NCBI GenBank assembly: GCA_014376585.1
Contig: JACMRG010000213.1
Coordinates: 1 to 33,149 of the forward strand
DNA length: 33,149 nt
Source: Opitutaceae bacterium
Lineage (GTDB): Bacteria; Verrucomicrobiota; Verrucomicrobiia; Opitutales; Opitutaceae
Direction: 5' to 3'
In this document: positions 1,962 through 16,460 of the stretch, piece by piece
How positions within the stretch are numbered: the first letter of the stretch is position 1
How the letters are laid out: the number at the start of each line of letters is the position of its first letter
Notes under the pieces: model-generated
Seen by the model: the letters and a program-made list of their open reading frames with translations, nothing else
Database searches by the model: none
What the model was told of the DNA's origin: nothing
Program-made: the position numbers and the translations under genes

Positions 1962-3461
1962 TCAGGCCACGACTCCTCGGGCGCGGGACTCGTTCGCGTT
2001 CGTAAACGACGTGAACGGTAGTTTTCGCAAGAGTGGTTTCCCGGTTCTTCGGGGATGTTTTACGACGGCATTGCCGTCGGCCAGCGAAAGGAACGAGGTC
2101 GGCTTGAACCACGGTTCGTCCATCGGCTGCCAGTTGCGCGAGGTGCGTCCGCTACTCACCCCGCCGCTGTATTTACGAATCTCCCGACCGCCCATCTTCT
2201 CGGAGAGGATCTTCGCGCCTTTTTCGTCCGCCGCCCGAAAGTGGATCTGCGTCCGCAAATTCGCCATGAAGACATCGGCCTTCCGCTCGGTCTCGAACGC
2301 GGCGTAGAGCGAGAGCGGTGTCTGCGTGGCGGAAATCAGACTGACGCCCGCTTCACGGAGTTCATCGACGGTTGCGTGATCCGAGAACCCGTCCTCGGAA
2401 ACCAGCGTGGTCTTTTGGCCTTCATCGAGAACGAGCGCTATGAGGTTCCGACGGCGCATCTCGTCGGGCTCGAGATCGAATCGCCGGAAGGCGTGCAGAA
2501 AGAAGAGCTGCTTGAAGAGCAGGTTCAAATAGCGCCGTTCGACCTGATAGGTCTGAGGCACCGACAGGCAGATCAGCCGGCCGGCATCGACTTCGGCCAA
2601 GCTGAAGTTGGGCGTGATCGAACACACGACCTGCCGAATGTCGGGCGGAGTGTAGGGCCGCAGATAGTTCGCGACGGTATAAACGGTGCCGCTTTTTTGT
2701 TCGGGTGGTTGCGCGTAGAAGGCGCTGAAATATTGCCGCCCAACTTCGGCCGCCGGACCCGGGTGCTCGGCCAAGCGAGCCAAGAGCAGGGCCGTGTCCG
2801 TGGAAATGCAGATGGTGTCATGCACGTTGGCGAGCGTCACCGGCAGCTCCGCGAGTTCGAGCGCGTGCATGGCATGGGTGATGACGTCGCGGGCGGTTTC
2901 CTTGAAAAACGCCTGACCGCCCCGTTGGCCGGAGGCCGTGGCGGTGTCCACGACGATCTTGGCGTAGGTGCTCCACGGCACCGAGGCGTCACCCAATATG
3001 TTCAGGCGCAGGGATGGCGTCCATTGGGCCGGAGCGATATGCGTCGGCCGAACACGGATCAACCGCAGACTTTCCTTCTGCCCGAGTTTTTCCGCCATCG
3101 CCGCCAGCGGTTTCCAGAGTGCGCCCTTGGAATCGATGGCCAGAATGCCAGTATCCGGCAGCGTCGAGCGGAGGCCATGCACGACCGGCACCACGGCGCG
3201 CGCCGTCTTGCCCGTGCCGGTGGCCCCGGTGATAAAAAAATGGCAACACGCCTCGTCGCGGGTCCATTCGAGTCCCCACAGGCGGAGGACGACGGCCGCC
3301 TTGGCCTCGAATCCGGCAATCAACGCGCAATAAATCAGCCACGCTCCGACGCCTTCCGCCAACACCGGCAACCAATAGCCGACGGGTGCCGCGACCATCA
3401 GCCGGACCGCGACGGCGACGGCGAAGCAAACGACAGCGAGGCCAGTAGTGAGTTGATTCAC
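1962..3461 (-). CDS. type IV coupling protein (VirD4/TraD-like ATPase)
   Basis: A 499-residue membrane ATPase of the T4CP family, which brings the relaxase-DNA complex to a secretion channel during conjugation. Two hydrophobic segments lie near the N-terminus (about residues 8-25 and 30-50). Walker A is GATGTGKT (79-86), Walker B is IALVLDEG (341-348), and the TraG/TraD-type sensor stretch GVSLISATQT follows (372-381). The length is somewhat short for the family, with a small all-alpha domain. It is the last gene of a leftward four-gene operon and overlaps the upstream gene by four bases, which implies translational coupling. No mating-channel genes are present in the window, so the channel would come from elsewhere. 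Confidence 0.88.
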   Translation of the reverse strand: MNQLTTGLAVVCFAVAVAVRLMVAAPVGYWLPVLAEGVGAWLIYCALIAGFEAKAAVVLRLWGLEWTRDEACCHFFITGATGTGKTARAVVPVVHGLRSTLPDTGILAIDSKGALWKPLAAMAEKLGQKESLRLIRVRPTHIAPAQWTPSLRLNILGDASVPWSTYAKIVVDTATASGQRGGQAFFKETARDVITHAMHALELAELPVTLANVHDTICISTDTALLLARLAEHPGPAAEVGRQYFSAFYAQPPEQKSGTVYTVANYLRPYTPPDIRQVVCSITPNFSLAEVDAGRLICLSVPQTYQVERRYLNLLFKQLFFLHAFRRFDLEPDEMRRRNLIALVLDEGQKTTLVSEDGFSDHATVDELREAGVSLISATQTPLSLYAAFETERKADVFMANLRTQIHFRAADEKGAKILSEKMGGREIRKYSGGVSSGRTSRNWQPMDEPWFKPTSFLSLADGNAVVKHPRRTGKPLLRKLPFTSFTNANESRARGVVA

Positions 3462-3943
3462 GTGAGCAGCACGATGACGGCAGAAAGCACGCCCACCGTG
3501 ACGCCGATCAAAAACGTCGCGAGGAATTGGCGACGCAGGGCCGTCTGAAAACTGCGGGAAAGCGGCGCGAGCGTCTTCTCCAACGCCTGAAGTCGGGTCA
3601 GTGCGTCGGCCACCGGCTTGGTGAGCTTCGCGTCCAGTTGGGCCTCCAGTTCGGCAGGCTTTTCCTCCAAGGCCACCTGCACGTCAGCCAGCGCGTCATT
3701 GACGCCCGCCACGATTTCGGCCGCTTCCGTCAGATGCCCGATGCGGTCGTCGAGCGCTTTTTTGATTTCCACGATGGTGGCTTTGAGGGTGTCCTCCGAT
3801 TGTTTCACTCGCCGCCAGTGCCACGCGATGAGCAAGTAGACCGGGTCCGTCGGATGCAGTTTGTAGTGGGCCGGCACCCATTTCAGGTCGTCCGGGAAGT
3901 TTCCAGGTTCGAGCAAATCCTCGGGTTTGAGCGCGGCACTCAT
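3458..3943 (-). CDS. coiled-coil, C-terminally membrane-anchored conjugation accessory protein
   Basis: A 161-residue protein of no family I recognise. The first 45 residues are soluble (DDLKWVPAHYKLHPTDPVYLLIAWHWRR). Residues about 48-130 form long amphipathic helices with heptad-like spacing (KKALDDRIGHLTEAAEIV and so on), and residues about 139-160 are one hydrophobic helix ending in VLLT. It overlaps the coupling-protein gene and the ParA gene by four bases on either side, so it is co-translated with both. Single-helix anchored coiled-coil proteins are common next to relaxase modules. A scaffold role between coupling protein and relaxosome is an inference. Confidence 0.75.
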   Translation of the reverse strand: MSAALKPEDLLEPGNFPDDLKWVPAHYKLHPTDPVYLLIAWHWRRVKQSEDTLKATIVEIKKALDDRIGHLTEAAEIVAGVNDALADVQVALEEKPAELEAQLDAKLTKPVADALTRLQALEKTLAPLSRSFQTALRRQFLATFLIGVTVGVLSAVIVLLT

Positions 3944-4641
3944 GGCAACAGTAGCTCCCGGGCTTTGCCGAACTCGTCCTTCATCCGGGCGTGGAACCGG
4001 ACGCAGCGTGAGCGATCAAGCAGGTGCAGGGCATCGGATTCGCGCCCCCGGCCGACGGTCAGATTCGCCTGCTGCAAACGGTTCTTCGTGACCTCCGCGA
4101 GACACGGCACATCGACCTCCACTGCGCCGTAGTCCGCCAGCCGTTTCCGAGCATTGCTCTGGGTAAAAAGATCGAGGTTTCCCCCATCGCGCAGGTTGCG
4201 GGCGACCAACCAGCGCACGCGGGGGCCGTGGGAGTCGAGCAACTCCGCAATCTGGGAATTCGCGTCCTTGTCGTCGGTCGCGATCACCGCGAACACCAGC
4301 GTGCAGCCGAATTTCTCCTGCATTTCGGGCAACTGCGTTTCGTCGAGGTAGGCGAGGACTTTGCTTCCGCCGGTCGCACGATTGTCCACGAGCACCACGT
4401 CGGCCTCCGGCAGCGAAAGGACGATCCGGTCGAGCACACCGAGCTTGTCGGTGTCGACATCGGTATCGATGAACTCGGCTTCGGGCACCAACCGGTTGAA
4501 CGTGGAATTGGCGTGGTCGAGGTCGAACGCCTTTAAGCGAACGCCGGCGTCGGTGAGATAATCATGGAGCAAGGTGGCGACAAAGCTCTTGCCGATGCCT
4601 CCTTTGTCCTGGGGAAAGAGAATGATGCGTTTGGTGGGCAT
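3940..4641 (-). CDS. ParA/MinD-like P-loop ATPase
   Basis: A 233-residue protein with the deviant Walker A KGGIGKS (residues 13-19), preceded by IILFPQD and followed by the switch-type stretch FDLDHANSTF. A later VVLVDNRATGG fits Walker B. These are features of the ParA/MinD/TraL-like ATPases that act in plasmid partition, or as ATPases in conjugative elements. The second residue of the family's usual xKGGxGK(S/T) motif is intact. It is the second gene of the leftward operon, between the HTH-like protein and the coiled-coil protein. A ParB partner is not adjacent, but the serine recombinase across the control region carries a ParB-like HTH. A role in element maintenance or relaxosome positioning is plausible. 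Confidence 0.8.
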   Translation of the reverse strand: MPTKRIILFPQDKGGIGKSFVATLLHDYLTDAGVRLKAFDLDHANSTFNRLVPEAEFIDTDVDTDKLGVLDRIVLSLPEADVVLVDNRATGGSKVLAYLDETQLPEMQEKFGCTLVFAVIATDDKDANSQIAELLDSHGPRVRWLVARNLRDGGNLDLFTQSNARKRLADYGAVEVDVPCLAEVTKNRLQQANLTVGRGRESDALHLLDRSRCVRFHARMKDEFGKARELLLP

Positions 4642-4655
4642 GGATTGGATGGGGT

Positions 4656-5036
4656 TCAGTAGTTGTCGCGGGCGATTTTTGGTCCGCGCCGGTTGGGAGT
4701 GGATTCAGCGGGCCGCAGACTGGCGGGCGGCACGGTAGCAGCAGAAACTCGGACCGGTGCAGCCGAGCGGTTCGCCTCGCGAGCCTCACGGCGCGCGCGT
4801 TCGATTTCCGCCTTGGTGAAGTGGCCCCGGCAATAAACACCGACGCCGGCCGGCGAGACTTTGATTCCGTGCGAGTGGAGCGTCGCCGCGATCTGCTCGT
4901 AGCTCATGAACTTCGCCCGCCACGCGAGCAGCACGTCGCGGTAAGGCGCGAGTAGCCCACGGTGGTGCGCGGCCGGATCGTAGTTCCGGGCGTCCTCCAT
5001 GAGGCGGGCGTGAAGTTCAGTGGTTTCGGCCATCAC
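4656..5036 (-). CDS. small HTH-like DNA-binding accessory protein
   Basis: A 126-residue basic protein, the first gene of the leftward operon and closest to the control region. Residues about 30-70 (YRDVLLAWRAKFMSYEQIAA followed by LHSHGIKVSPAGVGVYCRGH) have the pattern of a resolvase- or TraK-like helix-turn-helix: a 'sYeqIAatL...gi.VS...v' unit. Then follow a charged helix (KAEIERARREAREANR) and a disordered Pro/Ser/Arg tail. Such small proteins next to a MobF relaxase usually bind oriT in the relaxosome. The tandem 11-bp repeats just upstream are a natural target. Function is inferred from position and the HTH-like pattern only. Confidence 0.65.
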   Translation of the reverse strand: MMAETTELHARLMEDARNYDPAAHHRGLLAPYRDVLLAWRAKFMSYEQIAATLHSHGIKVSPAGVGVYCRGHFTKAEIERARREAREANRSAAPVRVSAATVPPASLRPAESTPNRRGPKIARDNY

Positions 5037-5050
5037 CGGAACGCTATCGT

Positions 5051-5066
5051 CGTATGGCTTTAAGTA
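5051..5066 (+). repeat. direct repeat copy 1, CGTATGGCTTT motif
   Basis: CGTATGGCTTTAAG at 5051 recurs as CGTATGGCTTTTAG at 5320. A shorter copy, CGTATGGC, lies at 5083-5090. The copies bracket the intergenic control region of the mobile element. Confidence 0.5.
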
Positions 5067-5099
5067 AATTGAAAAAAGATTTCGTATGGCCGGTAGAAA

Positions 5100-5151
5100 G
5101 TAGTGGCGAAGTAGTGGTCGAGTAGTGGCGGAGTAGCGATGTAGTGGCGGC
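5100..5151 (+). repeat. iteron-like tandem 11-bp repeats (GTAGTGGCGAA)
   Basis: Five head-to-tail units start with GTAG: GTAGTGGCGAA (5100), GTAGTGGTCGA (5111), GTAGTGGCGGA (5122), a short GTAGCGAT (5133), and GTAGTGGCGG (5141). The spacing is close to one helical turn, as expected for cooperative protein binding. This fits iterons, a parS-like centromere or oriT accessory sites. Confidence 0.7.
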
Positions 5152-5370
5152 GGCGTGAGATATTCCTAGCGGACGCTAGGGGTGGCGTGTCCACGGATTC
5201 ATAGGTAGAAAGTGCGGCTAGTGCCGCTCAAGTTCAGTCTTCGCCTCATTCAATCGCAGGGGGATTCAATGGTGCCGACCGGGTCACTCAAATGATTTGG
5301 ATGATGTTTAATTGGCTTCCGTATGGCTTTTAGGATGGCAAAGATATGGGTTTTAGACAGGGTCGTAAGC

Positions 5371-8022
5371 ATGGTCAGATTCGATAAGCCCTGTGTCCTT
5401 GCTCATGGTGCCGTGGAGTATTTCCGCGAGCACATGGCTGTGGGTGATTACCTGACTCAGGACGGTAAGGTTGAGATGACTTGGCAGGGAGTCGGGGCGG
5501 AACGTCTCGGTTTGGCTGGTTCATGTCAGCTCGCGCATTTTGAAAACCTGTGTGCCGGGCTGCACCCGGTGTCCGGGGAGAAACTCATGGTGCGGGATAA
5601 GGGTGAGAATCGACGGGTCTGTTATTTTGGACAGGTATCGCCGCCCAAGGATGTTTCCGTTCTTCATTTAGTGGGTGGTGACGAACGGATCGGCCGCTGG
5701 TGGCAGGAAGCGGTTGCGGAGACGCTGCGGGAGATGGAAGCGCTGACCGCGACCCGCGTGCGGCGCGCCGGTCAGAATTTCGACCGTCGCACCGGCAATA
5801 TGGTGGCGGTCGTCGTCACCCATGACGCCAACCGGGCACTCGACCCGCAGCTGCATACCCATGTGTGCATCATGAACCTCACCTACGACGGAACCGAGGG
5901 CCGCTGGAAAAGCGTTCAACCCTCGGGATTCTATCGGCATCAAGGCTACCTGCGGGAGGTTTGTTACAACAAGCTCGCCGGATTCATGACGGCGGCCGGG
6001 TATGAATTGGAGCCGGGCCAGCGCCTCGGCTTCGCGGTGAAAGGCGTTCCGCCAGAGTTGCGTGAGCTGTTCAGTAAGCGGCGGCGGGAAATTCTCCGGC
6101 AAGCGGCGGCAACCGGGGCGAAATCCCAGGATGAACTTCAGGCGATTGCCGTGCGCAGCCGAGCCGAGAAAACCAAGGCGACTGCCGCGACCTTGCGCGC
6201 GGGCTGGCTGGCCGAAGCGGGCGCGCACCTGGAAACGCTGCGGGCGGTGGTCGCGGCCGCACAGGGTGGGCCCGCGAAACTCGATCCCGTCACTCCCTTG
6301 GATGCGTTGCGGTCGGCGGAGGCGCATGTCTTCGAGCGCAAATCCGTCGTCGATGACCGACTGTTGCTCCGCGAAGCCCTCATCGCGGGTCGCGGTCAGG
6401 TGTCATTGGATGCGCTGAAGCGCGTCATGGCCGGCCGCGAACGTTCCGGCGAATTGGTCCGCGTTGACGAGGAGATCGCTTGGCGGGAGGGCCTGGAGTC
6501 GGAGCGCGAATTTACCGGCTGGGCGAACACCCAAGTTAAACGTCGGGCGGCGCTCGGCAAAGTTCCGCGCGGTTCAACCTTGGAAAAGGATCAGGCGGCG
6601 GCGGTGCGCGACCTGCTTGGCTCCACGTCGGGTGTCGTCATCCTGCAAGGCGACGCGGGCACTGGCAAAACCACGTGTCTGAAAACCGTGGTCGCCGGTA
6701 TCGAGCAGGCCGGTGGCAGGGTGTTTGGCTGCGCGCCGTCGTCGGGCGCGGCCGATGTGCTTCGCCGGGAACTCACGCCGGAAGCGGATACGCTCCAGCA
6801 ATTGCTCGCCAACGAGGCGATGCAGCAGACGACGAGGGGCCGGGTGCTGGTTGTCGATGAGGCGGGACTCGTCTCCGTGCGGCAGATGCGCGACCTTTGC
6901 CGGCTTGCTGCCCGCAACGACAACCGGCTCCTGCTGGTGGGCGACATCAAGCAGCACGCTTCGATCGAGGCCGGCGACGCGCTCCGGTGCTTGCAGGAAT
7001 TCGCCCGCGTGCCGGTGTTTCATCTGACCGAAATCCGGCGGCAGGTGGACCCGGCTTATCGGAAGGCGGTGGCCCGCCTGGCGCGCGGTGACGCCTTCGG
7101 TGCGTTCAACGAGTTCAACCGGCTCGGTTCCGTCCACGAGATGCCGGAAGAGTCCGGGCTCTGGCAGGAAGCCGCGGCGGACTACGTGCGGACCGTGCGG
7201 GCCGGAAAATCCTGTCTGGCGATTTCGCCGGTATGGGCGGAGATCCGCGAGTTCACTTCGGCCGTGCGCGCTCAGTTGCGGCTCGCGGGTGTGCTCACCG
7301 GCGCCGAGCACGCGGTCACGACGGTCGAAGCGCTCAAGTGGACGCAGGAGGAGCGTCGCCGGGCGCAGAACTATCGTCCCGGCGATGTGCTCACCTTTCA
7401 CCATTCGTGGGGGCGCTTCCGCAAATTCGATACGGCCGCCGTGGTGCGGCAGGAGGACCGCCAGCTGGTGTTGCGTGACCCGGAGGATCGCGAGCGGTGG
7501 TTGGACCCCCGGCAGGCCAGCGGGTTTGAAGTCGGCACGACGAACGAGATTTCCATCGCGGTGGGCGACCGCCTGTTGATCCGGGCGAATGTGAAGCCGG
7601 CTAACCTGCGCAACGGCGACCTGGTCGAGGTCGCGGCCATCGGCGACGACGGCGAGATTGCACTCAAGGACGGGCGCGTCCTCCCCGTTTGGTTCCGCGG
7701 GTTCACCCACGGCTATGCAGCCACCTCGCACTCCGCGCAGGGTAAGACCGTGGATCGCGGCATCGTGCTGATGGCAGAAGCGGGCATCGCGGCTGGCGAT
7801 CTGAAACAAGCCTACGTCTCAAATTCCCGTTTCCGTGAAAGTCAGGTCATTTTCACCTCCGACAAAGCCGCCGCCCGCGACGCGATGATGCGTCTCGCCG
7901 ACCGCAAGCTCGCCCTCGAAATGGTCGGCCTGGATCAGCCCGAGAACCCGTCATCTCGAAAGTCCTGGCGCGCGCGTTGGGCATCGCATCTCGCTCCTTC
8001 GGTTCACGCCAAAGTCGCATGA
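5371..8022 (+). CDS. MobF-family relaxase-helicase (TrwC/TraI-like)
   Basis: This 883-residue protein nicks oriT, stays covalently bound to the 5' end and unwinds the strand for transfer. ATG 5371 is chosen because it places the expected N-terminus (VRFDKPCVLAHGAVEYFREH) at the start; the frame is open back to 5323. Candidate catalytic tyrosines are Y17 and Y27, close to Y18 and Y26 of TrwC. The metal-binding triad is H151, H162 and H164 in HDANRALDPQLHTH. The helicase half is RecD-like: Walker A GDAGTGKTT (427-435), Walker B RVLVVDEA (491-498), then GDIKQHASIEAGDALR, and a C-terminal HGYAATSHSAQGKT motif. All key residues are intact. It is shorter than F TraI and close to TrwC in length. The stop codon overlaps the next start. 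Confidence 0.93.
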   Translation: MVRFDKPCVLAHGAVEYFREHMAVGDYLTQDGKVEMTWQGVGAERLGLAGSCQLAHFENLCAGLHPVSGEKLMVRDKGENRRVCYFGQVSPPKDVSVLHLVGGDERIGRWWQEAVAETLREMEALTATRVRRAGQNFDRRTGNMVAVVVTHDANRALDPQLHTHVCIMNLTYDGTEGRWKSVQPSGFYRHQGYLREVCYNKLAGFMTAAGYELEPGQRLGFAVKGVPPELRELFSKRRREILRQAAATGAKSQDELQAIAVRSRAEKTKATAATLRAGWLAEAGAHLETLRAVVAAAQGGPAKLDPVTPLDALRSAEAHVFERKSVVDDRLLLREALIAGRGQVSLDALKRVMAGRERSGELVRVDEEIAWREGLESEREFTGWANTQVKRRAALGKVPRGSTLEKDQAAAVRDLLGSTSGVVILQGDAGTGKTTCLKTVVAGIEQAGGRVFGCAPSSGAADVLRRELTPEADTLQQLLANEAMQQTTRGRVLVVDEAGLVSVRQMRDLCRLAARNDNRLLLVGDIKQHASIEAGDALRCLQEFARVPVFHLTEIRRQVDPAYRKAVARLARGDAFGAFNEFNRLGSVHEMPEESGLWQEAAADYVRTVRAGKSCLAISPVWAEIREFTSAVRAQLRLAGVLTGAEHAVTTVEALKWTQEERRRAQNYRPGDVLTFHHSWGRFRKFDTAAVVRQEDRQLVLRDPEDRERWLDPRQASGFEVGTTNEISIAVGDRLLIRANVKPANLRNGDLVEVAAIGDDGEIALKDGRVLPVWFRGFTHGYAATSHSAQGKTVDRGIVLMAEAGIAAGDLKQAYVSNSRFRESQVIFTSDKAAARDAMMRLADRKLALEMVGLDQPENPSSRKSWRARWASHLAPSVHAKVA

Positions 8023-8372
8023 GCATCGAAATCTTTCCCGGAACCAAGCCGCTCATGCGGCCAGCGCCCCCGAACTGGGGCGAGATCTCGCCCGACGGCA
8101 AGACGGCGACCGTGGTGCGTTTCGCGCTCGTGGACCGGTGGGTGTCCTTTCCAGCCGATCAGTTCAAACGCTGGGAGCACGCGGTGGGCGAACCGGAGAT
8201 GCTGACGATCAAAACCGAGAAAGAGGAAATCGTCATCGAGGGCCGCGAATTGGCCGAGATCCGCGCGGCGCTCGACTTGGGCCGGCTCTGTGAACTGCGG
8301 GCGAATTTCCCGGGCCCCAGGGGGGCTGGGCCCGGTCCGCAGGTCCGCCGAATCACGATTGAAACGGCATGA
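8019..8372 (+). CDS. hypothetical small protein of the mobilization operon
   Basis: A 117-residue protein whose ATG overlaps the relaxase stop codon (ATGA), so it is translationally coupled to the relaxase. It is predicted soluble and slightly basic, with a beta-rich first half (ATVVRFALVDRWVSFPADQF, then WEHAVGEPEMLTIKTEKEEI) and a short C-terminal helix and tail rich in Gly/Pro. No family recognised. The next gene begins three bases after its stop, so it belongs to the same transcript as the relaxase and the methylase-helicase. A longer in-frame start at 7977 would lie inside the relaxase gene and is less likely. Confidence 0.65.
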   Translation: MSIEIFPGTKPLMRPAPPNWGEISPDGKTATVVRFALVDRWVSFPADQFKRWEHAVGEPEMLTIKTEKEEIVIEGRELAEIRAALDLGRLCELRANFPGPRGAGPGPQVRRITIETA

Positions 8373-8375
8373 AGC

Positions 8376-11300
8376 ATGGCGCAAAAACGACTCAACGATC
8401 CGTCGCAACTCGATCTCTTCGCGCACGCCCAACATGAGCGGACTCCTCACATACGGACGGATGGCGGAAGCCCACTGGCGGGAGTATTGTCCGCGGATCG
8501 TGCGGACGCTGGAAAATCAGGACCGGTCGCAGGCGGCGCTGCTGGAAGCCCAGGAGCGGACGTTGGACGAGATGGAAATACTGATGCGACAGTTCCGCCG
8601 GCAGGGACTGAACCCGCAGCAGACGCACGATCAGGCCTGGGAGCTGGTGAGGGAGAAATACATTCTCCTGCCGCCGGAGCGGGCGAAATAGTTCCGCTCA
8701 ACGCGAACAACTACCGGATCACCGACGCCGACCGCATCGGCGAAGGCGGACTAAAACAGAAGTATCGCCAGAATCTCGCGGCCATCCGCACAGTCCGCCA
8801 GATTCAGGCGGAGGCCCGGCCGGCCACCACGGAGGAAAAAGCCGTCATCGCCAAGTATGTCGGCTGGGGCGGACTGCCGCAGGTGTTCGCCACGCCGGCG
8901 GACGCTCCGCAGTGGAGAGCCGAGCAGGAGGAGCTGGCCGGATTGCTGGAACCCGATGAATTGAGTTCCGCGCGCGCCACTGTGCTCAACGCGCACTACA
9001 CTTCGCCCACCGTCATCCGGGCGATGTATGCGGCGCTGGACCGTCTTGGTTTCAAACACGGTCGCGTCCTCGAGCCCGCCTGCGGACTCGGACACTTTTT
9101 TGGCGTGATGCCGGATGCGATGGCGGCGCGCTCGCATTTGACCGGTGTCGAAATCGACCCGCTCACCGCCCGGCTCGCCCAGGCGCTCTACCCCGACGCG
9201 GACATCCGGTCGCAAGCGTTCGAGAACGTCACGCTTCCGACGAATGGCTTCGATCTCGCGGTTTCCAACGTGCCGTTCGGCGACTACGCGCCCTTCGATC
9301 CGAAGCTCAATCCGCGGAAATTTCATATTCACGACTACTACTTCGTAGCCGCGGCCGAGCGCGTGCGGACCGGCGGGCTGGTCGCGTTCGTCACGTCGCG
9401 CGGCACGCTCGACAAACAGTATCCCCATCTGCGCGAGGCCGTGGCCAAGTCGTGCGATTTTATCGGCGCAATCCGCCTGCCGAACACCGCCTTCAAAAAG
9501 AACGCCAATACCGAAGTCACGACCGACATCGTGTTCCTTCGCAAACGCGCGCCCGGGGAAAAAGTCGGCGGCCAGCCGTGGCGGGAGAGTCGACCGCTGG
9601 GCGCGGAGACGAACGCCATTTTTCTTAACGAGTATTACCACGCGCATGCCGAAATGATGCTTGGCCGGCTAGAGCGGGTGGAGCACGGCATGTATGGTCG
9701 CGAGGAAGTCCGGCTTTCCGCCGACGGACGCGACTTGGGTGAAGCGTTGGCCGGTGCGGTCGCGACGCTTCCGGCGAATGTCTTCAAGCCGCTCTCGGAG
9801 CAGCAGGCGGCGGCGATGCGCCAGACCATCCCGGTGCCACCGGGCGTAAAGCCCAACGCCTACGTCCTGACGAACGAGGGCGGCGGCGGAATCGCCGTGC
9901 GTGACGGCGACGAGTTGCGGCTGTTGACCGACTTGCCGCCACTTATGGCGCGGCGCATCCGGCGGCTGATCTACGTGCGCGACGCAGCGCGCGATTGCTT
10001 GCGCACGCAGGTCGAGAACCGGCCGGACGCCGAGGTCGAGGCCGCGCGCTTCCGGCTCAATCAGGACTACGACTATTTTAACGGGCAGTTCGGGCCGGTG
10101 TCGCACCCGGCGAATGTCCGCGCGTTCGCCGGCGACCCCGATTTGCCGTTGCTCCTTTCTTTGGAGAACTACGACGACGACACCAACACTGCGACGAAGA
10201 CGGCCATCTTTCGAGAGCGCACCATCCAGCGGCGCCAGCCCGTGCTGGCCGCCGGCGGAGCGAAAGAGGCCCTCGTCATCACGCTCAGCGAAAAGGGTAA
10301 AGTCGATCTGTCGCACATCGGAAAACTCCTCGGCAGATCCGAGGCCGAGTTTCTGCCGGAGTTGCAGGGCGCTCTTTTCCTTAACCCAGAGAGCCAGCGG
10401 TGGGAGACGGATGACGACTACCTCTCGGGCAACGTCCGACGGAAACTCGCGATGGCTGAGCACGCGGCAAAAACCGACGCCCGGTATCGACCCAACGTCG
10501 AGGCGTTGGCCGGCGTGCAGCCGGTCGACCTCACGGCGACGGAAATCGATGTCCGACTCGGATCGGCGTGGATTCCCACGAGGGATGTCGCCGCCTTCGC
10601 CGTCGACCTCCTGCACGGGCATCGCCCGGACGACGTGCGCGTGCATCACGCGGCACAGGTCGGGCTGTGGACGGTCGAGGTCAACGCCGCCATCAAGACC
10701 GGCGTCGCCGACCGCACCGAATGGGGCACCGCGCGCATCGCGGGTCACGCGCTGATCGAGGACGCGCTCAATCTGCGCACCCCGACGATTTTCGACTATG
10801 ACGACGAGGGCAAAGCTACCGTCAACGTGACGGCCACGGAGTCCGCCCGCGACAAGCAGCAGAAAATCAAAGACCGGTTTTCCGAATGGATTTGGGAGGA
10901 CGACGCCCGGCGCGAGCGGCTCGTGGATTTCTACAACCGGGAGTTCAATCACCTCCGGCTCCGCACCTTCAACGGCGACCATCTCACGCTGCCGGGCGCG
11001 AGTCCGACGATCACGCTGCGCCCTCATCAAAAGGCGGCGGTGTGGCGCATCCTGCAAACACCCAACGCGCTGCTCGCGCACGTGGTCGGCGCCGGGAAGA
11101 CCTACACGATGGCGGCTGCCGCGATGGAACTGAAACGACTCGGGCTCGCCCGGAAACCGATGTTCGTCGTCCCGAATCATATGCTCGGTCAGTTCAGCTC
11201 AGAGCTGCTCGCGCTCTATCCCGGTGCGAACGTTCTCGCCGCCGGGCGCGACGACTTCGCGAGCTTGCGTCGGCGCGAATTGATGAGCCGCATCGCGACC

Positions 11301-13694
11301 AATAATTGGGACGCGATCATCGTCACGCATTCGGGTTTCGAGCGGCTGCCGCTCTCGGCCAAGGCTCGTAAAGAATTTCTGGATGGGCAGCACGCGGAAC
11401 TGGTCGAGTGCATTTTGGAGCACAAAAGCCGGATTGGTGCATCGGCGTCCGGCACGCGGCTCGTGAAGGAATTGGAGCGCGCGAAAAAGAAACTCGAAGG
11501 CCGGATCAAAGCGCTCGGAGCCGAGCACCGCAAAGACGACACCCTGACGTTCGAGGAACTCGGCGTTGACCGGCTGTTCGTGGATGAGGCGCAGGCGTTC
11601 AAGAACCTGTTCTACATTTCCAAAATGACGCGAGTGGCCGGTCTGCCGCAGACCGCTTCGGAGCGGGCGTTCGACATGTTCCTGAAAGTGCAGCACGTCC
11701 AAAAGCAAAACGACGGCGCGGGCGTCGTCTTCGCCACCGGCACCCCGGTCACGAACACGATGGCGGAGATGTTCACGATGCAGCGCTACCTGCAAATGGA
11801 CGCGTTACGGCGTCAGAGTCTCCAGCACTTCGACGCGTGGGCCGGCACGTTCGGTGAGACGGTGACGGCGATGGAGCTGGCCCCGGATGGTGCCGGCTAC
11901 CGTTTGCACACCCGGTTCGCCCGGTTCGTGAACGTCCCGGAGCTGATGCAGATGTTCCGGTCGGTGGCCGACGTGCATACGGCGGATATGCTCAAGCTCC
12001 CCATTCCCGCGCTCGACGGCGGCAAGGCGCGCATCGTCCGCGCGCCCGCGACGCCGGAATTAAAGGCATTCGTCGCCGCGTTGGCGGTGCGCGCCGAGAA
12101 ACTCAAACGCGAGAAGGTCGATCCCTCTGTGGACAACATGCTCAAAATAACCGGTGAAGGCCGGAAGGCGGCGCTCGACATGCGATTGGTGCGGGGCGGC
12201 ACGGCGGATGCGCCCGAGAGCAAGGTCAACCAAGCCGTCCGCGAAATATTTTCTATCTGGCACGAAACGCGGGCGGACCGGCTGACGCAGATGGTGTTTT
12301 GCGACTTATCCACGCCGAAGGTCGAGGGGCGCGGCTTTTCCGTTTACCAAGATGTCAAAGCCAAGCTGATCGCACGCGGCGTGCCCGCCGAGGAAATCGC
12401 CTTCATCCAAGACTACGACGGCGACGCCGTGAAACTGACGCTCTTCAAAGACGTGCGGTCCGGCAAGGTGCGCGTCCTGTTGGGTTCTTCGCAGAAAATG
12501 GGCGCGGGCACTAACGCGCAGACGAAGCTGGTGGCGTTGCATCATCTCGACGCCCCGTGGCGTCCCGCGGACATCGAGCAACGTGAAGGTCGCATTCTCC
12601 GGCAGGGCAACCAAAACGCGGTTGTCCGCGTGAACCGCTATGTCACGGAAGGCAGCTTCGATGCTTACATGTGGCAAACGCTTGAAACGAAGGCGAAGTT
12701 CATCGCGCAGGTGATGACCGGCCAAACCGTGGCCCGCCGGCTCGAGGACTTGGATTCACCCGCACTCACATATGCCGAGGTAAAAGCCATCGCCTCGGGT
12801 AATCCGCTCGTCATCGAAAAGGCCAAGGTGGATGCCGAGGTCATGCGCTTGTCGCGGCTCCGCTCCGAGCACAGCGAATCGCAGTATGGCACCCGCAGCC
12901 GGTTGCGCATGGCCGGCGAGGATGTCGCACGGCTCGAACGTCAGGTGGCGGCGATGGAGCAGGACAAGGCCACGTGCGTGGATACTCAGGGTGATAAGTT
13001 TCGGATGGTCGTCGGTCAGAAAACCTACACCGAGCGCGCGGAGGCCGGCGCGGCGCTGGTGTATCTGGCGGCCGAACATCGCGACGATTATCTTGCCGGA
13101 CGCGCCGGAACCATCGTGCTGGGCGAGCTAGCCGGTTTCAAACTCGAATACCGCTCGGCGTGGCCCGACAAGGTCACCCTGCGGGGCGCGGCCGAACACG
13201 TTGCCAACATTTCGCCATCACCGATCGGCTCTATCAGTTCGCTCGAACACGCGGCGCGCTCCATCGAGGAACACGTGCTGCGGCTCCGCGATGAACTCGC
13301 GCGGTGTCGGACGAACCTCGCGGAGTTGACCGCACTCACGGGAAAAATCTTTGAGCACGAAGAACGCTATCGCGAACTCCTCAAGCGACAGGGCGAACTC
13401 GTTGACCTGCTCGACATCACCAAAAATCAGGCGTCGGCGCAGCAGGCCACCGAATCAACGGGCGACGCGGAATCGGTGGCTGCGGTAGCGCCGGAACCGA
13501 ACTCGCCCAGCGAAGAGGAATCGTCCGAAGAAGCACCCGCGCCGGTGGTCGCTACCGAAGTGGCGCTGGCCAAGACGACGAAAATCCGTCCGATCAAGAC
13601 CCGGCGGTTGGTGAAAAAAGAGCCCGTCCAATCGCTCGCGCCAACGGTGCGATTGTCGTCTGGCAATACCGGCCGGATGCAAATTGCCGTATGA
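8376..13694 (+). CDS. N6-adenine methylase / SNF2-type helicase fusion (DarB-like)
   Basis: A giant 1772-residue protein. Residues 1-110 are a Gly/Ala/Pro-rich linker after a short QLDLF-containing head. A methyltransferase domain follows, with the AdoMet motif LEPACGLGHFFG (232-243) and catalytic motif NVPF (298-301, a variant of NPPF/Y). A superfamily-2 helicase follows: motif I VVGAGKT (903-909), motif II VDEAQ (1069-1073), motif VI QREGRILRQG (1402-1411). The C-terminus is coiled coil, then an acidic and finally a basic tail. The methylase-plus-helicase architecture recalls phage P1 DarB and large proteins of conjugative elements thought to protect entering DNA from restriction. That role is inferred. 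The second P of the catalytic motif is replaced by V, as I recall for relatives. An 85-codon ORF overlaps its 5' end in another frame. Confidence 0.88.
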   Translation: MAQKRLNDPSQLDLFAHAQHERTPHIRTDGGSPLAGVLSADRADAGKSGPVAGGAAGSPGADVGRDGNTDATVPPAGTEPAADARSGLGAGEGEIHSPAAGAGEIVPLNANNYRITDADRIGEGGLKQKYRQNLAAIRTVRQIQAEARPATTEEKAVIAKYVGWGGLPQVFATPADAPQWRAEQEELAGLLEPDELSSARATVLNAHYTSPTVIRAMYAALDRLGFKHGRVLEPACGLGHFFGVMPDAMAARSHLTGVEIDPLTARLAQALYPDADIRSQAFENVTLPTNGFDLAVSNVPFGDYAPFDPKLNPRKFHIHDYYFVAAAERVRTGGLVAFVTSRGTLDKQYPHLREAVAKSCDFIGAIRLPNTAFKKNANTEVTTDIVFLRKRAPGEKVGGQPWRESRPLGAETNAIFLNEYYHAHAEMMLGRLERVEHGMYGREEVRLSADGRDLGEALAGAVATLPANVFKPLSEQQAAAMRQTIPVPPGVKPNAYVLTNEGGGGIAVRDGDELRLLTDLPPLMARRIRRLIYVRDAARDCLRTQVENRPDAEVEAARFRLNQDYDYFNGQFGPVSHPANVRAFAGDPDLPLLLSLENYDDDTNTATKTAIFRERTIQRRQPVLAAGGAKEALVITLSEKGKVDLSHIGKLLGRSEAEFLPELQGALFLNPESQRWETDDDYLSGNVRRKLAMAEHAAKTDARYRPNVEALAGVQPVDLTATEIDVRLGSAWIPTRDVAAFAVDLLHGHRPDDVRVHHAAQVGLWTVEVNAAIKTGVADRTEWGTARIAGHALIEDALNLRTPTIFDYDDEGKATVNVTATESARDKQQKIKDRFSEWIWEDDARRERLVDFYNREFNHLRLRTFNGDHLTLPGASPTITLRPHQKAAVWRILQTPNALLAHVVGAGKTYTMAAAAMELKRLGLARKPMFVVPNHMLGQFSSELLALYPGANVLAAGRDDFASLRRRELMSRIATNNWDAIIVTHSGFERLPLSAKARKEFLDGQHAELVECILEHKSRIGASASGTRLVKELERAKKKLEGRIKALGAEHRKDDTLTFEELGVDRLFVDEAQAFKNLFYISKMTRVAGLPQTASERAFDMFLKVQHVQKQNDGAGVVFATGTPVTNTMAEMFTMQRYLQMDALRRQSLQHFDAWAGTFGETVTAMELAPDGAGYRLHTRFARFVNVPELMQMFRSVADVHTADMLKLPIPALDGGKARIVRAPATPELKAFVAALAVRAEKLKREKVDPSVDNMLKITGEGRKAALDMRLVRGGTADAPESKVNQAVREIFSIWHETRADRLTQMVFCDLSTPKVEGRGFSVYQDVKAKLIARGVPAEEIAFIQDYDGDAVKLTLFKDVRSGKVRVLLGSSQKMGAGTNAQTKLVALHHLDAPWRPADIEQREGRILRQGNQNAVVRVNRYVTEGSFDAYMWQTLETKAKFIAQVMTGQTVARRLEDLDSPALTYAEVKAIASGNPLVIEKAKVDAEVMRLSRLRSEHSESQYGTRSRLRMAGEDVARLERQVAAMEQDKATCVDTQGDKFRMVVGQKTYTERAEAGAALVYLAAEHRDDYLAGRAGTIVLGELAGFKLEYRSAWPDKVTLRGAAEHVANISPSPIGSISSLEHAARSIEEHVLRLRDELARCRTNLAELTALTGKIFEHEERYRELLKRQGELVDLLDITKNQASAQQATESTGDAESVAAVAPEPNSPSEEESSEEAPAPVVATEVALAKTTKIRPIKTRRLVKKEPVQSLAPTVRLSSGNTGRMQIAV
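8434..8691 (+). CDS. candidate overprinted gene, 85-residue helical protein
   Basis: This ORF lies wholly inside the 5' part of the methylase-helicase gene, shifted by one base. It starts at ATG 8434 and ends at TAG 8691. Its protein is strikingly well-formed: an opening SGLLTYGRMAEAHWREYCPR followed by charged, amphipathic helices (ALLEAQERTLDEMEILMRQF, then THDQAWELVREKYILLPPER). I recall related small proteins next to similar helicase genes in other elements. The overlapping frame reads as a low-complexity Gly/Ala/Pro linker exactly here, as expected if this frame carries the main constraint. No strong ribosome binding site is visible. The function is unknown. Confidence 0.6.
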   Translation: MSGLLTYGRMAEAHWREYCPRIVRTLENQDRSQAALLEAQERTLDEMEILMRQFRRQGLNPQQTHDQAWELVREKYILLPPERAK

Positions 13695-14083
13695 GAAACG
13701 AAGTCGCGAGGTCATTCATCCCGGCGTCCGACGGGCTTACGGAAGGGCAGAGGTTGAACCGTATCTGCGAATTGCTCTCCAAGGCTGTCGTCCGCGACTG
13801 GGCCAGCCGGATTGTGGTCGAGCGCGGCGCGGGCGGCGCGCCGGAGGAGCCGTGCGCCCCGATGGCGGAGGCGTCCGATGGAGCACGGGTTCTCAGCTAC
13901 CTGTCGCTCGTTGGTGAAGCGAGTTCGGCGCTAATCCGCGAAACGCTCGGATTGTCCAAGATGCGGGTCTATCGCGCCGTTCATTCATTGATCAGGAGCG
14001 GCCGGGTCACCGCCAAAGGGCGCTCTCGAATGACGACCTATGCGCTCAGTCGAACGGAGGCGAGTAAGGTGACGCTCAATTGA
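13691..14083 (+). CDS. winged-helix DNA-binding protein
   Basis: A 130-residue protein whose start overlaps the stop of the methylase-helicase gene (ATGA). The C-terminal half (about residues 66-122) has a MarR/TrmB-like winged-helix pattern: VLSYLSLVGEASSALIRETL, then GLSKMRVYRAVHSLIRSGRV and a TAKGRSRMTTYAL wing. The N-terminal half is helical with an Ala/Gly-rich linker. The wing-helix unit resembles the extreme C-terminus of the serine recombinase next door (IIAFLRRAGPT, then STYRRLSELVSAGQV), so the two may share a fold. It could regulate the element's operons or act as a directionality factor for the recombinase. Both are inferences from position. Confidence 0.7.
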   Translation: MRNEVARSFIPASDGLTEGQRLNRICELLSKAVVRDWASRIVVERGAGGAPEEPCAPMAEASDGARVLSYLSLVGEASSALIRETLGLSKMRVYRAVHSLIRSGRVTAKGRSRMTTYALSRTEASKVTLN

Positions 14084-14090
14084 ACCGGAG

Positions 14091-16460
14091 ATGAAGCCCG
14101 CCCAAAACGTCACCGCCCTGTGGATGCCTGCCGCGATCTACACACGCGTTTCGACCACCAAACAGTTGGGCCGTCGGATGGAATCGTGCGAGAGTCAGGA
14201 AGCCATTTGTCAGGACTATATCCGAACTCAAGCGCCGGTTAAGGGCTGGGATCATGTGCAGACGTTCACCGATCCAGCCTACTCCGGTGCAACCATGAAG
14301 CGGCCGGGGATGGACGCGCTCAAGCAAGCGGTCGCGGCTGGCCAAATCCGCGTCGTCGTCATCTTCAAGTTGGAGCGCGTCCTGCGTTCGACCGACGAGT
14401 GGGCACCGTTTCGCACGTTTCTGAGTCAGAACAATTGCGAGCTGGCGAGCGCGATGGAGGATATTTCCGAAAAAACCGCGCTGGGCCGGCTCAAAAATAA
14501 CCTGCTCGTCAGCGTCTCCGAATATGACCGGTTGAACACCGCCGAAAAAGTCCGAGCGAAAATGGGCGAGCAGGCGAAGCGCGGATTTTGGAACGGCGGT
14601 AGCGTTCCCTACGGCTACGCCTACGACAAGACTACCCAGAAGCTGAGCCACCACCCCGTGGAATCTGTCGTGGTCCGGCGCATCTACGAGCGTGCGGCCG
14701 GGCTGGTTTCGCTCACCGACTTGGCCAATTTCCTCAATGCTGAGGGCCTTCGCACCAAACAGCGATTTTTGCGCCGTCGTGACGGCACCCGGCAAGTTAT
14801 CGGCCAGCAGCGATTCCGGTCGGACGGCCTGCGACTGCTTGTTACAAATCCCATCTATCGTGGTGTGGTGCGATTCCAAGGCGAGGAATACCGAGGTCAA
14901 CATGAAGCGCTGGTGTCCGATGATCTGTGGGAACGCGCGAATGCCGCGGTCCGGGAAACCCGCCCGCGGGCGGAGTTGCGCGTCGACCAGAATATCCACC
15001 AATACCTGCTCAAGGGGATTTGCCGTTGCGGCCACTGCGGTCGCTCGCTGATTCCGCAGACCTGCGGGGACAGCAACAACGCCCACAAAAGGTATCGCTA
15101 TTACAACTGCGGCTCCGTGCTGCGCGACCGCCGTCTCGGCGAATGTCCGGTGGGCCGGCTATCGGCGCGGGCCTTGGAGGGCGCGGTCATCGCTTTTCTC
15201 GGTGAGGTCAGCAAGCACCCGTCGCTCGTCAGCGGTGTCCTCGAAGCGACGCGTGCGCGGTCGAAGGGAGATCGACAGTCACTGCGGACCGATCTGGACG
15301 CGCTCCAAGCGCGGTTGGATAAGGTGAATGAGGAGTTGGGTCGGTGTGTGGACGTAGTGGCAAAAGGGGGCGCGGGTGTGCTCGGCCCCGAGCTCATGAA
15401 GCGCGCAGAAAAATTGCGCGCGGAGCAGGATCAATTGGTGATCGGGCGCGAAAAAAAACGTCAGGAGCTGGTGGCGTGTGATGCCGCGACCTATAACGAG
15501 AAGCGTGTGCAGGACTCCCTGGAACGACTCACTCTAATTCTGCCGGTATTGGCTCCGGCCGAACAGGCGGAACTCGTGCGTTTGTTTGTGGACCGTGTCG
15601 AAGTCCGGGAACCGGCGCGGACACAATTCGGCGCGTCGCTCGAGGAAGGCGCATCACGTCGCGTGCTGGCGCTGCGGATCAAATTGCATCTGCCGCGATT
15701 GGTGGAGGGCATCGAACGGGCCGATGGGACAGGCAAGTCGGTCGCGAATTCATATCGGCCGATTGCCGCGCGCGGCGTCAACTTTGAGACCAAGGTGGAT
15801 TTCTCCCAAGCGCTCCGTGGCGTCGTGACGCTCCTCGCCCCATTTCACCATCCGGTGCGCGTTTCCGGGAGGGCCGATGGCATCGCTCTTGTCGAACGGG
15901 CTAAAGTTGCCGGCGAGACGCAGCATTTGGTGGTGCGCGCGCAACACTGGCATCGCTTGCTCGAGAGCGGCCAAGCCGCCAACCGGGTCGCGCTGGCCAA
16001 GCGATTTGGCGTCACCCCGGGTGCCGTTACGCGCACCTTGAAAATGATTCAGTTGAGTCCCGAGATTCAAAATTTTCTTGGCACGTTGAAGACAAAGGAG
16101 GCTCTCCGGCATTTCGGAATGAAGAAAGTCGGCGCCTTGGCGGACCTGACCCGGGAGGAGCAACTCGCCGGTTTCGAGCGCATCCGCCGTGCCTTCGCCC
16201 AGCCGACGCCGGACTTGGTTCCGGGTGAACCACTCAAGGTGTTCCGGTCCGAAGCCAAAGAAGCCGAGGATATGGCCGACACCGAGCGCATCATCGCCTT
16301 CCTCCGTCGGGCCGGGCCGACCGCTCCACGGAGGATCGGCGCGGAGGTGCAGCTATCAATCGCATCGACCTACCGGCGCCTTTCCGAACTTGTGTCGGCC
16401 GGCCAAGTCGCCTGCACCGGTAACACTCGAAATCGCACCTATGCGGCACTAACGGCGTAG
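14091..16460 (+). CDS. large serine recombinase with ParB-like C-terminal extension
   Basis: A 789-residue site-specific recombinase, the likely integrase of the element. The catalytic N-terminal resolvase domain has the nucleophile S21 in YTRVSTTKQ, followed by the family stretches KLERVLRSTDEW and EYDRLNTAEKVRAKMGEQAK. The 'recombinase' domain follows (GFWNGGSVPYGYAYD onwards), then a zinc ribbon with C-x-C-x2-C (about 310-315) and later YYNCG and CPVG, then a coiled coil (about 400-470). Unlike ordinary large serine integrases (about 450-600 residues), it continues with a ParB-like HTH (LAKRFGVTPGAVTRTLKMIQ, around 635-655) and a terminal winged helix. It ends the rightward operon, eight bases after the winged-helix gene. 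An internal ATG at 14124 is an alternative start. Confidence 0.9.
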   Translation: MKPAQNVTALWMPAAIYTRVSTTKQLGRRMESCESQEAICQDYIRTQAPVKGWDHVQTFTDPAYSGATMKRPGMDALKQAVAAGQIRVVVIFKLERVLRSTDEWAPFRTFLSQNNCELASAMEDISEKTALGRLKNNLLVSVSEYDRLNTAEKVRAKMGEQAKRGFWNGGSVPYGYAYDKTTQKLSHHPVESVVVRRIYERAAGLVSLTDLANFLNAEGLRTKQRFLRRRDGTRQVIGQQRFRSDGLRLLVTNPIYRGVVRFQGEEYRGQHEALVSDDLWERANAAVRETRPRAELRVDQNIHQYLLKGICRCGHCGRSLIPQTCGDSNNAHKRYRYYNCGSVLRDRRLGECPVGRLSARALEGAVIAFLGEVSKHPSLVSGVLEATRARSKGDRQSLRTDLDALQARLDKVNEELGRCVDVVAKGGAGVLGPELMKRAEKLRAEQDQLVIGREKKRQELVACDAATYNEKRVQDSLERLTLILPVLAPAEQAELVRLFVDRVEVREPARTQFGASLEEGASRRVLALRIKLHLPRLVEGIERADGTGKSVANSYRPIAARGVNFETKVDFSQALRGVVTLLAPFHHPVRVSGRADGIALVERAKVAGETQHLVVRAQHWHRLLESGQAANRVALAKRFGVTPGAVTRTLKMIQLSPEIQNFLGTLKTKEALRHFGMKKVGALADLTREEQLAGFERIRRAFAQPTPDLVPGEPLKVFRSEAKEAEDMADTERIIAFLRRAGPTAPRRIGAEVQLSIASTYRRLSELVSAGQVACTGNTRNRTYAALTA

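Follow-up and report, generated by a model that had tools for sequence, protein, structure and literature searches.

Can one stretch of bacterial DNA be held to two proteins at once and, if so, which of the two reading frames came first? This question is raised by a contig of 33,149 nucleotides (hereafter the window) from an Opitutaceae bacterium (JACMRG010000213.1), one contig of a 5.24-Mb draft genome, in which an open reading frame (ORF) of 85 codons lies within a much longer gene for a DNA methylase-helicase. A first reading, made from the sequence only, had proposed that the small gene is overprinted inside the longer one and that both frames are used. Here, we compare the locus with its relatives in bacterial genomes, phages and plasmids, and ask which frame is preserved, what the small protein is related to and which of the two partners is the older. 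The longer gene is termed the host. The features of the window are as follows.

5323–8022, + strand: MobF/TrwC-type relaxase-helicase
7977–8372, + strand: small upstream ORF of 131 aa, which stops 3 nt before the host ATG
8376–13694, + strand: host gene, N6-adenine methylase and SF2 (SNF2-like) helicase, 1772 aa, a DarB-like dyad by domain order
8376–8433, + strand: host head outside the overlap, MAQKRLNDPSQLDLFAHAQ, with the clamp-type motif QLDLF at about 8406–8420
8434–8691, + strand: nested 85-codon gene for a TnpV-like, predicted four-helix protein, in the host +1 frame
8434–8691, + strand: host residues about 20–105 across the overlap, stop-free, nearly neutral and probably a disordered linker
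8709–9100 (end approximate), + strand: beginning of the conserved core of the host, with LPD36-like helices (NNYRITDADRIGEGG...)
13691–14083: 130-codon ORF, which overlaps the host stop codon by 4 bases and has weak winged-helix matches
14091–16460, + strand: large serine recombinase, weakly CcrB-like

Placement and recurrence of the nested gene

Re-reading both frames confirmed that the small ORF, which runs from ATG 8434 to TAG 8691 (85 aa), lies entirely within the 1772-codon methylase-helicase ORF at 8376–13694; position 1 of each small-gene codon is position 2 of a host codon. The description of the host frame on the same bases was also correct: it is rich in Gly, Ala and Pro, with QLDLF before the overlap and NNYRIT after it. 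The longest mechanical ORF of the small frame has 133 aa and begins at GTG 8290. Conservation of the small protein begins at ATG 8434, and 66 of 80 loci have an ATG in this column; 13 of the other 14 have an in-frame ATG or GTG 3–5 codons upstream, and the last (L110) has a small-frame ATG 2 codons downstream of the usual start column. A Shine–Dalgarno-like stretch at most 16 nt from the ATG accompanies only 15 of the 66 ATG starts.

When 95 genomes were searched with the small protein, 8 of them yielded 13 copies (the window's own copy and genome counted); further searches gave matches in 31 of the 252 genomes of an Opitutaceae family set (two with short fragments only) and 80 loci in a collection of named genomes. 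The best named matches are metagenome-assembled genomes labelled Opitutaceae or other Verrucomicrobiota, with a few bins labelled otherwise. From 120 matched loci, seven were set aside (L001, L090, L092, L093, L116, L118 and L119) and the remaining 113 reduced to 88 distinct loci. Both frames are open in 82 of the 88, the exceptions being L050, L063, L070, L088, L108 and L113, and no intact copy shown has a third frame free of stops.

The choice of loci for the rate tests described below favours intact copies, and a host-first survey, in which the query was the host core that follows the overlap, was made to offset this bias. The core has matches in 28 of the 252 genomes of the family set and in 35 of 384 genomes of the class (some genomes are in both sets). 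The survey comprises 76 loci, the partial host places G173:C44, G175:C221, G158:C105 and G430:C54 being left out; nine were excluded because they are incomplete at the start or distant (L158, L175, L204, L224; L176, L220–L223). The remaining 67, the window included, are termed close hosts and match from residue 1–3 at 48% identity or more. The small ORF is present in 63 of the 67, in an identical relative frame in all 63 (L151 and L170 match only partly in the small frame, and L197 is cut by a contig end), and the host frame is open through the overlap in 62 of these 63, with L214 as the exception. The recurrence in relatives on which the first reading had made its case conditional is borne out, and the small frame is recognisable, rather than broken, in most close hosts.

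The small ORF was not found in four close hosts (L186, L199, L201 and L216), in which the clamp motif is followed by a short, different Pro-rich linker that leads straight into the core in one frame, and it is absent from five of five distant hosts (41% identity or less). P1 DarB has no nested ORF (best profile match E 0.22) and no such head (the head judged by eye). The small segment is therefore dispensable to the host, whose linker sequence is free. L222 (G471:C19) has a 4600-codon open frame with a Gly-rich stretch before the host core, and there the host +1 frame holds a different, charged, coiled-coil-like ORF of about 165 codons; the junction of head and core may host other nested genes.

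Across 74 loci, the distances between small proteins are correlated with those between hosts (Mantel r 0.72; the largest value among permutations is 0.11). Small gene and host have therefore mostly moved together, with local mosaicism. Between the window and L014, 22 of 60 bases differ at 8494–8553, in the middle of the small ORF, and the blocks 360–1140 nt past the start differ at 0–4 bases; between L014 and L016 the difference falls in the next 60-base block (14 of 60). This mosaicism in the middle of the ORF resembles the outcome of local recombination or of rapid change in helix 2.

Kinship of the small protein and its reach in mobile elements

The structural model of the small protein consists of four helices (pLDDT 88). 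Comparison of this fold with solved structures gave nothing significant (the top PDB entry, 2apl, at E 3.7 and TM 0.40, is not evidence), and a PDB sequence search with the small protein gave nothing below E 0.18. The top match in BFVD is Q8W6J4 (TM 0.75, E 1.4e-3), which we guess to be orf33 of phage PBC5. In Pfam, 25 of 32 relatives match TnpV (PF14198) at E ≤ 1 (best 4.9e-7); the curated cut-off of 27 bits is passed by two of ten relatives scanned singly (L060, 30.2 bits; L089, 29.5 bits) and not by the other eight. The window's own copy has no PF14198 match in Pfam, and a PF14198 search across 19 related genomes and 14 controls gave none. Profile–profile comparison with the TnpV alignment, which has only four rows, recovers a relationship: the Verrucomicrobial/phage set matches it at probability 78 (E 1.8e-5) over the N-terminal half only, and by way of the Streptomyces set the probabilities are 94.6 (E 6.8e-8) and 96.1 (E 3.3e-9). 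In the eight singly scanned members that match PF14198, the matches begin at profile position 21–25; the kinship does not extend over the full length of TnpV, which has some 20 more residues at its N terminus. By these profile comparisons, the small protein is a distant relative of TnpV. TnpV genes are mentioned, in the accessible text of PMC9815147, in elements inserted in snf2 genes.

Other collections add little. All 32 members of the Verrucomicrobial/phage set match phrog_938 in PHROG, the window copy at its last stretch, and the best PADLOC match is at E 0.01 (3 of 32 members). DUF1896 is a similar small protein found beside helicases; its family PF08989 gave no match in the window's own genome or in 14 controls, a result that does not in itself establish absence.

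Phages carry the same arrangement. The viral-contig relative L118, used as query, found 21 phage records, in which the features over its matches are annotated as DarB-like, DNA methylase, helicase, PLxRFG, transglycosylase, hypothetical or unknown. All 11 phage loci fetched from these records have a nested homologue with the host frame open at small +2: Erwinia phages PEp14, Pavtok and Stean, Klebsiella phages SopranoGao and LASTA, Pseudomonas phage Itty13, Vibrio phage VvAW1, Sinorhizobium phage PBC5, Agrobacterium phage Atu_ph08, Ochrobactrum phage POI1126 and Microcystis phage Mwe-JY07. In ten of the 11, about 740 to 1880 open codons of the host frame precede the small gene; in PBC5, 89 do. 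At the nested spot, ten of the 11 are annotated with only the big gene or wrong-strand ORFs; in PBC5 (L122) the nested stretch is the end of another annotated gene. There, at 2716–9309, the small frame is open for 2197 codons, so that the small protein forms the tail of the gene annotated upstream. In Itty13 (L124, 4905–16163), three long ORFs are annotated opposite a DarB-like frame of 4112 codons, probably a misannotation.

The window's small protein itself matches 11 phage records at E ≤ 1 (best 5e-6), its amino-acid similarity reaching phages at 33–38% identity. The window's host core matches 104 phage records at E ≤ 1e-5, of which the best 25 are about 40–46% identical, with DarB-like genes among those listed; the check for nested ORFs covered few of the 104. 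Viral contigs gave no match to the window small protein alone and three to the small-protein alignment.

Plasmids gave no match at E 1e-3 to the window small protein or to its phage form, and weak plasmid matches were obtained only with a relative as query at E ≤ 10. On Streptomyces plasmids, the small ORF is nested in annotated giant helicases (L131, L132, L142 and L143); in Streptomyces L133, L134 and L140 it is itself annotated and the host frame crosses it without a stop, encoding methylase and helicase domains in L133. Streptomyces L136 has a longer, separate small gene abutting the helicase, and the +2 frame of Thermobifida L141 is free of stops across the small ORF and is not joined to an annotated helicase. 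Among Bacillota, the small ORF of Virgibacillus (L137) and Cohnella (L138) is nested in frames encoding methylase and helicase domains. On the Cohnella herbarum plasmid (3115–8333) TnpV is annotated, and the surrounding methylase-helicase frame, of at least 1739 codons, is absent from the incomplete PLSDB table. The faecal contig L146 has a TnpV ORF within an open frame of 915 codons, with the methylase-helicase after it in a different frame; in Clostridia, the TnpV genes of L135 and L139 stand alone. The mention, in the sequence-only reading, of similar small proteins beside related helicase genes finds its counterpart in the separate Streptomyces gene and in free-standing TnpV. Very diverged ORFs occupy the same place and frame in Burkholderia DC1 (eight records of five Burkholderia phages in total, DC1 included) and Pseudomonas 8P, with weak profile support (E 0.003–0.007 and 0.5, respectively).

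In the window, relaxase, 131-aa ORF, methylase-helicase, 130-codon ORF and serine recombinase stand in a row, an order that suggests a mobile element. Among the 57 loci with at least 3 kb upstream, a homologue of the relaxase is present in 19 (in 18 of them ending 411–597 nt before the small start) and a homologue of the 131-aa ORF in 18. The relaxase was rejected as a constant partner of the small gene, given that only 19 of 57 loci have it.

The small protein might instead be an excisionase-like factor for the element's serine recombinase, its nesting being incidental. This role draws on the TnpV kinship, on the part in excision that the accessible text of PMC3158075 postulates for TnpV of Tn4451, and on the large serine recombinase of the window itself. 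The constant neighbour in phages and plasmids is, however, the methylase-helicase, and no serine recombinase is annotated in the 11 fetched phage stretches (about 16–18 kb each, not whole genomes). We give the excisionase-like role a small but appreciable chance.

The host enzyme and its head

Pfam matches to the host include ResIII above its cut-off, and Methyltransf_11/25 and Helicase_C below theirs; GEGG after NNYRITDADRI, and NVPFG, were seen by eye in the core. A helical domain with the GXGU motif, a methylase and an SF2 helicase follow one another in the host, the domain order of the DarB-like dyad in PMC5512222.

A clamp-type motif, QL[SDNEG][LF][FL], is present in 85 of 87 heads, 5–18 residues before the overlap, where shuffled heads give a mean of 0.1. 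The consensus of sliding-clamp-binding peptides is given as QL[S/D]LF in the accessible text of PMC12309361, and QLDLF in the window's host head agrees with it at all five positions; by this consensus the head carries the canonical sliding-clamp-binding peptide, predicted to bind DnaN. Near the overlap, no clamp motif was found in the 11 named phages, 8P, DC1, Cohnella L138 or seven Streptomyces loci, and clamp-type motifs lie after the overlap in Virgibacillus L137 (QLELF), the faecal phage contig L146 (QLSLF) and the viral contig L118 (QLDLI). The tethering role proposed below would therefore apply only to the Verrucomicrobial elements and to a small number of others, in which the motif suggests that some DarB-like enzymes ride on the replication clamp. 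The host model was built from 9 rows and its overall quality is poor: mean pLDDT is 48.6, and 188 of 300 residues, some of them in the methylase, score below 50. Block pLDDT is 26–34 over the first 100 residues, and no helix of four or more residues occurs before residue 126. The host residues over the overlap are probably disordered, forming a flexible linker, with which this model is weakly consistent.

An alternative is that the methylase-helicase starts after the overlap, in which case the small gene would simply be the preceding gene and the open host frame and QLDLF head a leader or an accident. As annotated, the helicases of Streptomyces L134 and L140 begin only beyond the small gene, and P1 DarB does without such a head. 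Yet the head motif lies in the same frame in 85 of 87 loci, almost every close host with the small ORF is open through it, ten of 11 phages have a long open host frame upstream, and the four close hosts lacking the small ORF carry motif, short linker and core in one frame. Nor is the openness of the host frame to be expected: with the small protein kept and its codons redrawn, the host frame is open in 17.5% of draws per locus (34% when codons are permuted only), and for all 30 representatives to be open log10 P is −26 (redrawn) or −18.5 (permuted), loci being taken as independent. We consider a later host start unlikely.

Selection in the two frames

The openness of the small frame is weak evidence, since with the host protein fixed and codons redrawn it stays open in 76% of draws per locus, and relatives were needed for a decision. 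The rate tests omit the six loci with a broken frame and then L035 and L038 (indel), which leaves 80 loci, 74 of them with enough host sequence; these yielded 30 pairs, each locus being used once and the pairs treated without a tree.

Differences follow the codons of the small frame. In the 30 pairs, difference rates in the overlap are 0.106, 0.081 and 0.230 at small-codon positions 1, 2 and 3; downstream, they are 0.116, 0.078 and 0.307 at host-codon positions 1, 2 and 3. Fourfold wobble sites of the host differ at 53 of 1323 (0.040) in the overlap and at 2017 of 6555 (0.308) downstream, an eightfold reduction; the values for six 85-codon windows downstream lie between 0.288 and 0.330. When sites are classed by their effect in the two frames, the rates are 0.090 where both proteins change, 0.291 where only the host changes, 0.071 where only the small protein changes and 0.327 where neither does. 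A constraint on RNA or DNA (a structure, or a transfer or attachment site) rather than on a second protein would suit an overlap located in mobile elements, but the constraint tracks small-codon positions, low at 2 and 1 and high at 3, and amino-acid similarity extends as far as phages; the reading was rejected on this codon rhythm, and we regard it as highly improbable.

The ratio of non-synonymous to synonymous change (omega), estimated for both frames together in the 30 pairs, is 0.31 (95% 0.24–0.39) by NN/NS and 0.22 (0.14–0.34) by SN/SS for the small frame. For the host frame within the overlap it is 1.27 (1.08–1.54) by NN/SN and 0.89 (0.65–1.32) by NS/SS, so that purifying selection is detected on the nested frame and not on host residues within the overlap; in the first third of the overlap the host value is 0.71 by NS/SS, perhaps a sign of some residue constraint there. 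Positive selection on the host frame was rejected as an explanation of the value of 1.27, which probably reflects stronger constraint on small-codon position 2 than on position 1, and not adaptive change. Outside the Verrucomicrobial set the test is thin, with a pooled small-frame omega of 0.41 for four phage pairs; for two Streptomyces pairs it is 0.72, and the pair L131–L132 (1.0) shows no constraint.

The small protein is thus a conserved product, its sequence strongly preserved in the bacterial relatives tested, as the rate comparison suggested by the sequence-only reading now shows. That a GC-rich, low-complexity host stretch leaves another frame open by chance, as the 76% of redraws allows and as ORF length alone would not reject, was rejected on the substitution pattern (host wobble suppression, small-frame codon rhythm and omega of 0.31) and sits poorly with homology to annotated TnpV and to separate genes, so that its probability is close to negligible.

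What is preserved in the host is of another kind: the host frame is kept stop-free over the overlap, and its residues there are nearly unconstrained. The claim that both frames are used is supported for the small frame and, by the log10 P of −18 to −26, for the openness of the host frame; it does not extend to host residues, which at an omega of 0.89–1.27 are not preserved. Small-frame fourfold wobble sites differ at 243 of 983 (0.247), against 0.308 downstream, and are lower in 24 of 30 pairs (Wilcoxon p 0.002). Excess wobble conservation, mostly an excess of G, is found in 18 of 49 testable columns among 44 representatives. The fraction of Gly, Ala and Pro is 0.48 in the overlap versus 0.22 in the rest of the host (30 loci); since 0.45 is expected from the small codons when read in the host frame, the linker-like appearance of the host stretch is largely a by-product.

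Origin of the overlap and a proposed mechanism

By comparison across relatives, 8434–8691 is a genuine protein gene inside a second gene, in another frame. This TnpV-like gene straddles, out of frame, the joint of the head (or of upstream polyvalent domains) with the methylase-helicase core. Free-standing TnpV relatives, hosts without the small ORF and near-neutral host residues make the small gene the likelier elder. The original proposal, a small gene overprinted inside the methylase-helicase, is on these grounds probably backwards: the host linker is probably the overprinted newcomer, and the small gene the old partner.

A route to this state can be suggested. A head or upstream domain would have been joined to the methylase-helicase by reading an intervening TnpV-like gene in a new frame, and this new-frame reading would have locked the small gene and the host together. 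The host stretch would then act as a flexible tether between the N-terminal clamp-binding QLDLF peptide and the LPD36-methylase-helicase body, and the tethered enzyme might ride the sliding clamp and modify newly replicated DNA of the element. The small protein would be made from the shared message through internal initiation at ATG 8434. From their linkage only, we infer that it is a partner of the host enzyme, and it may act with it as an accessory subunit or as a regulator of element DNA processing. Taken whole, the explanation of a real 85-residue nested gene, a host frame kept as a clamp tether and an older small gene is one that we hold with reasonable confidence.

Relation to known systems and significance

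The small protein resembles TnpV (PF14198) of Tn4451-type and clostridial elements in its distantly similar helical core, its small size and its occurrence in mobile elements. Unlike the window copy, which is nested and has no Pfam match, TnpV is free-standing in L135 and L139 and has about 20 more N-terminal residues. The host resembles the DarB-like dyad of phages and conjugative elements (PMC5512222, accessible text) in its LPD36-type start, N6-adenine methylase and SF2/SNF2 helicase, and its core is about 40–45% identical to DarB-like phage genes. It differs from P1 DarB, which lacks head, linker and nested ORF, and from the dyad as described in that text, where an overlapping ORF, TnpV and a clamp motif go unmentioned: in the accessible part, neither 'overlapping' nor 'TnpV' appears, and 'nested' is used only for a protein fold. 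Our literature search, largely outside subscription papers and supplements and thus weak evidence of novelty, found no description of an ORF nested in DarB-like genes.

Long overlapping genes firmly established in bacteria are few, according to the accessible text of PMC9927249. A small gene embedded in a mobile-element core gene has a parallel in ardD within tniA of Tn5053 (PMC3533173), but ardD, in the accessible text, is antisense, whereas the small gene of the window lies on the same strand as its host and is widely conserved. As in viral and Escherichia coli O157:H7 overlapping genes, one stretch of DNA serves two proteins; the O157:H7 cases are, in the sources as accessible, antisense or recent, whereas here the nested partner is the old and conserved one.

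On balance, we lean towards a deeply conserved nested pair on one strand, which occurs in elements of Verrucomicrobiota, in tailed phages and in the plasmids of Actinomycetota and of Bacillota. In this view, a TnpV-like gene of ancient origin also supplies, through another frame, the disordered tether of an antirestriction enzyme of the DarB type; the old gene is the constrained partner, and what is new and overprinted is the linker. If this is true, the nested gene and the host enzyme would be physically inseparable in transfer. One arrangement, in one relative frame, is kept across very distant mobile elements and missed by annotation. It adds a hidden conserved protein to a well-known antirestriction enzyme and offers a testable case of a protein linker that arose from an older gene read in a new frame.
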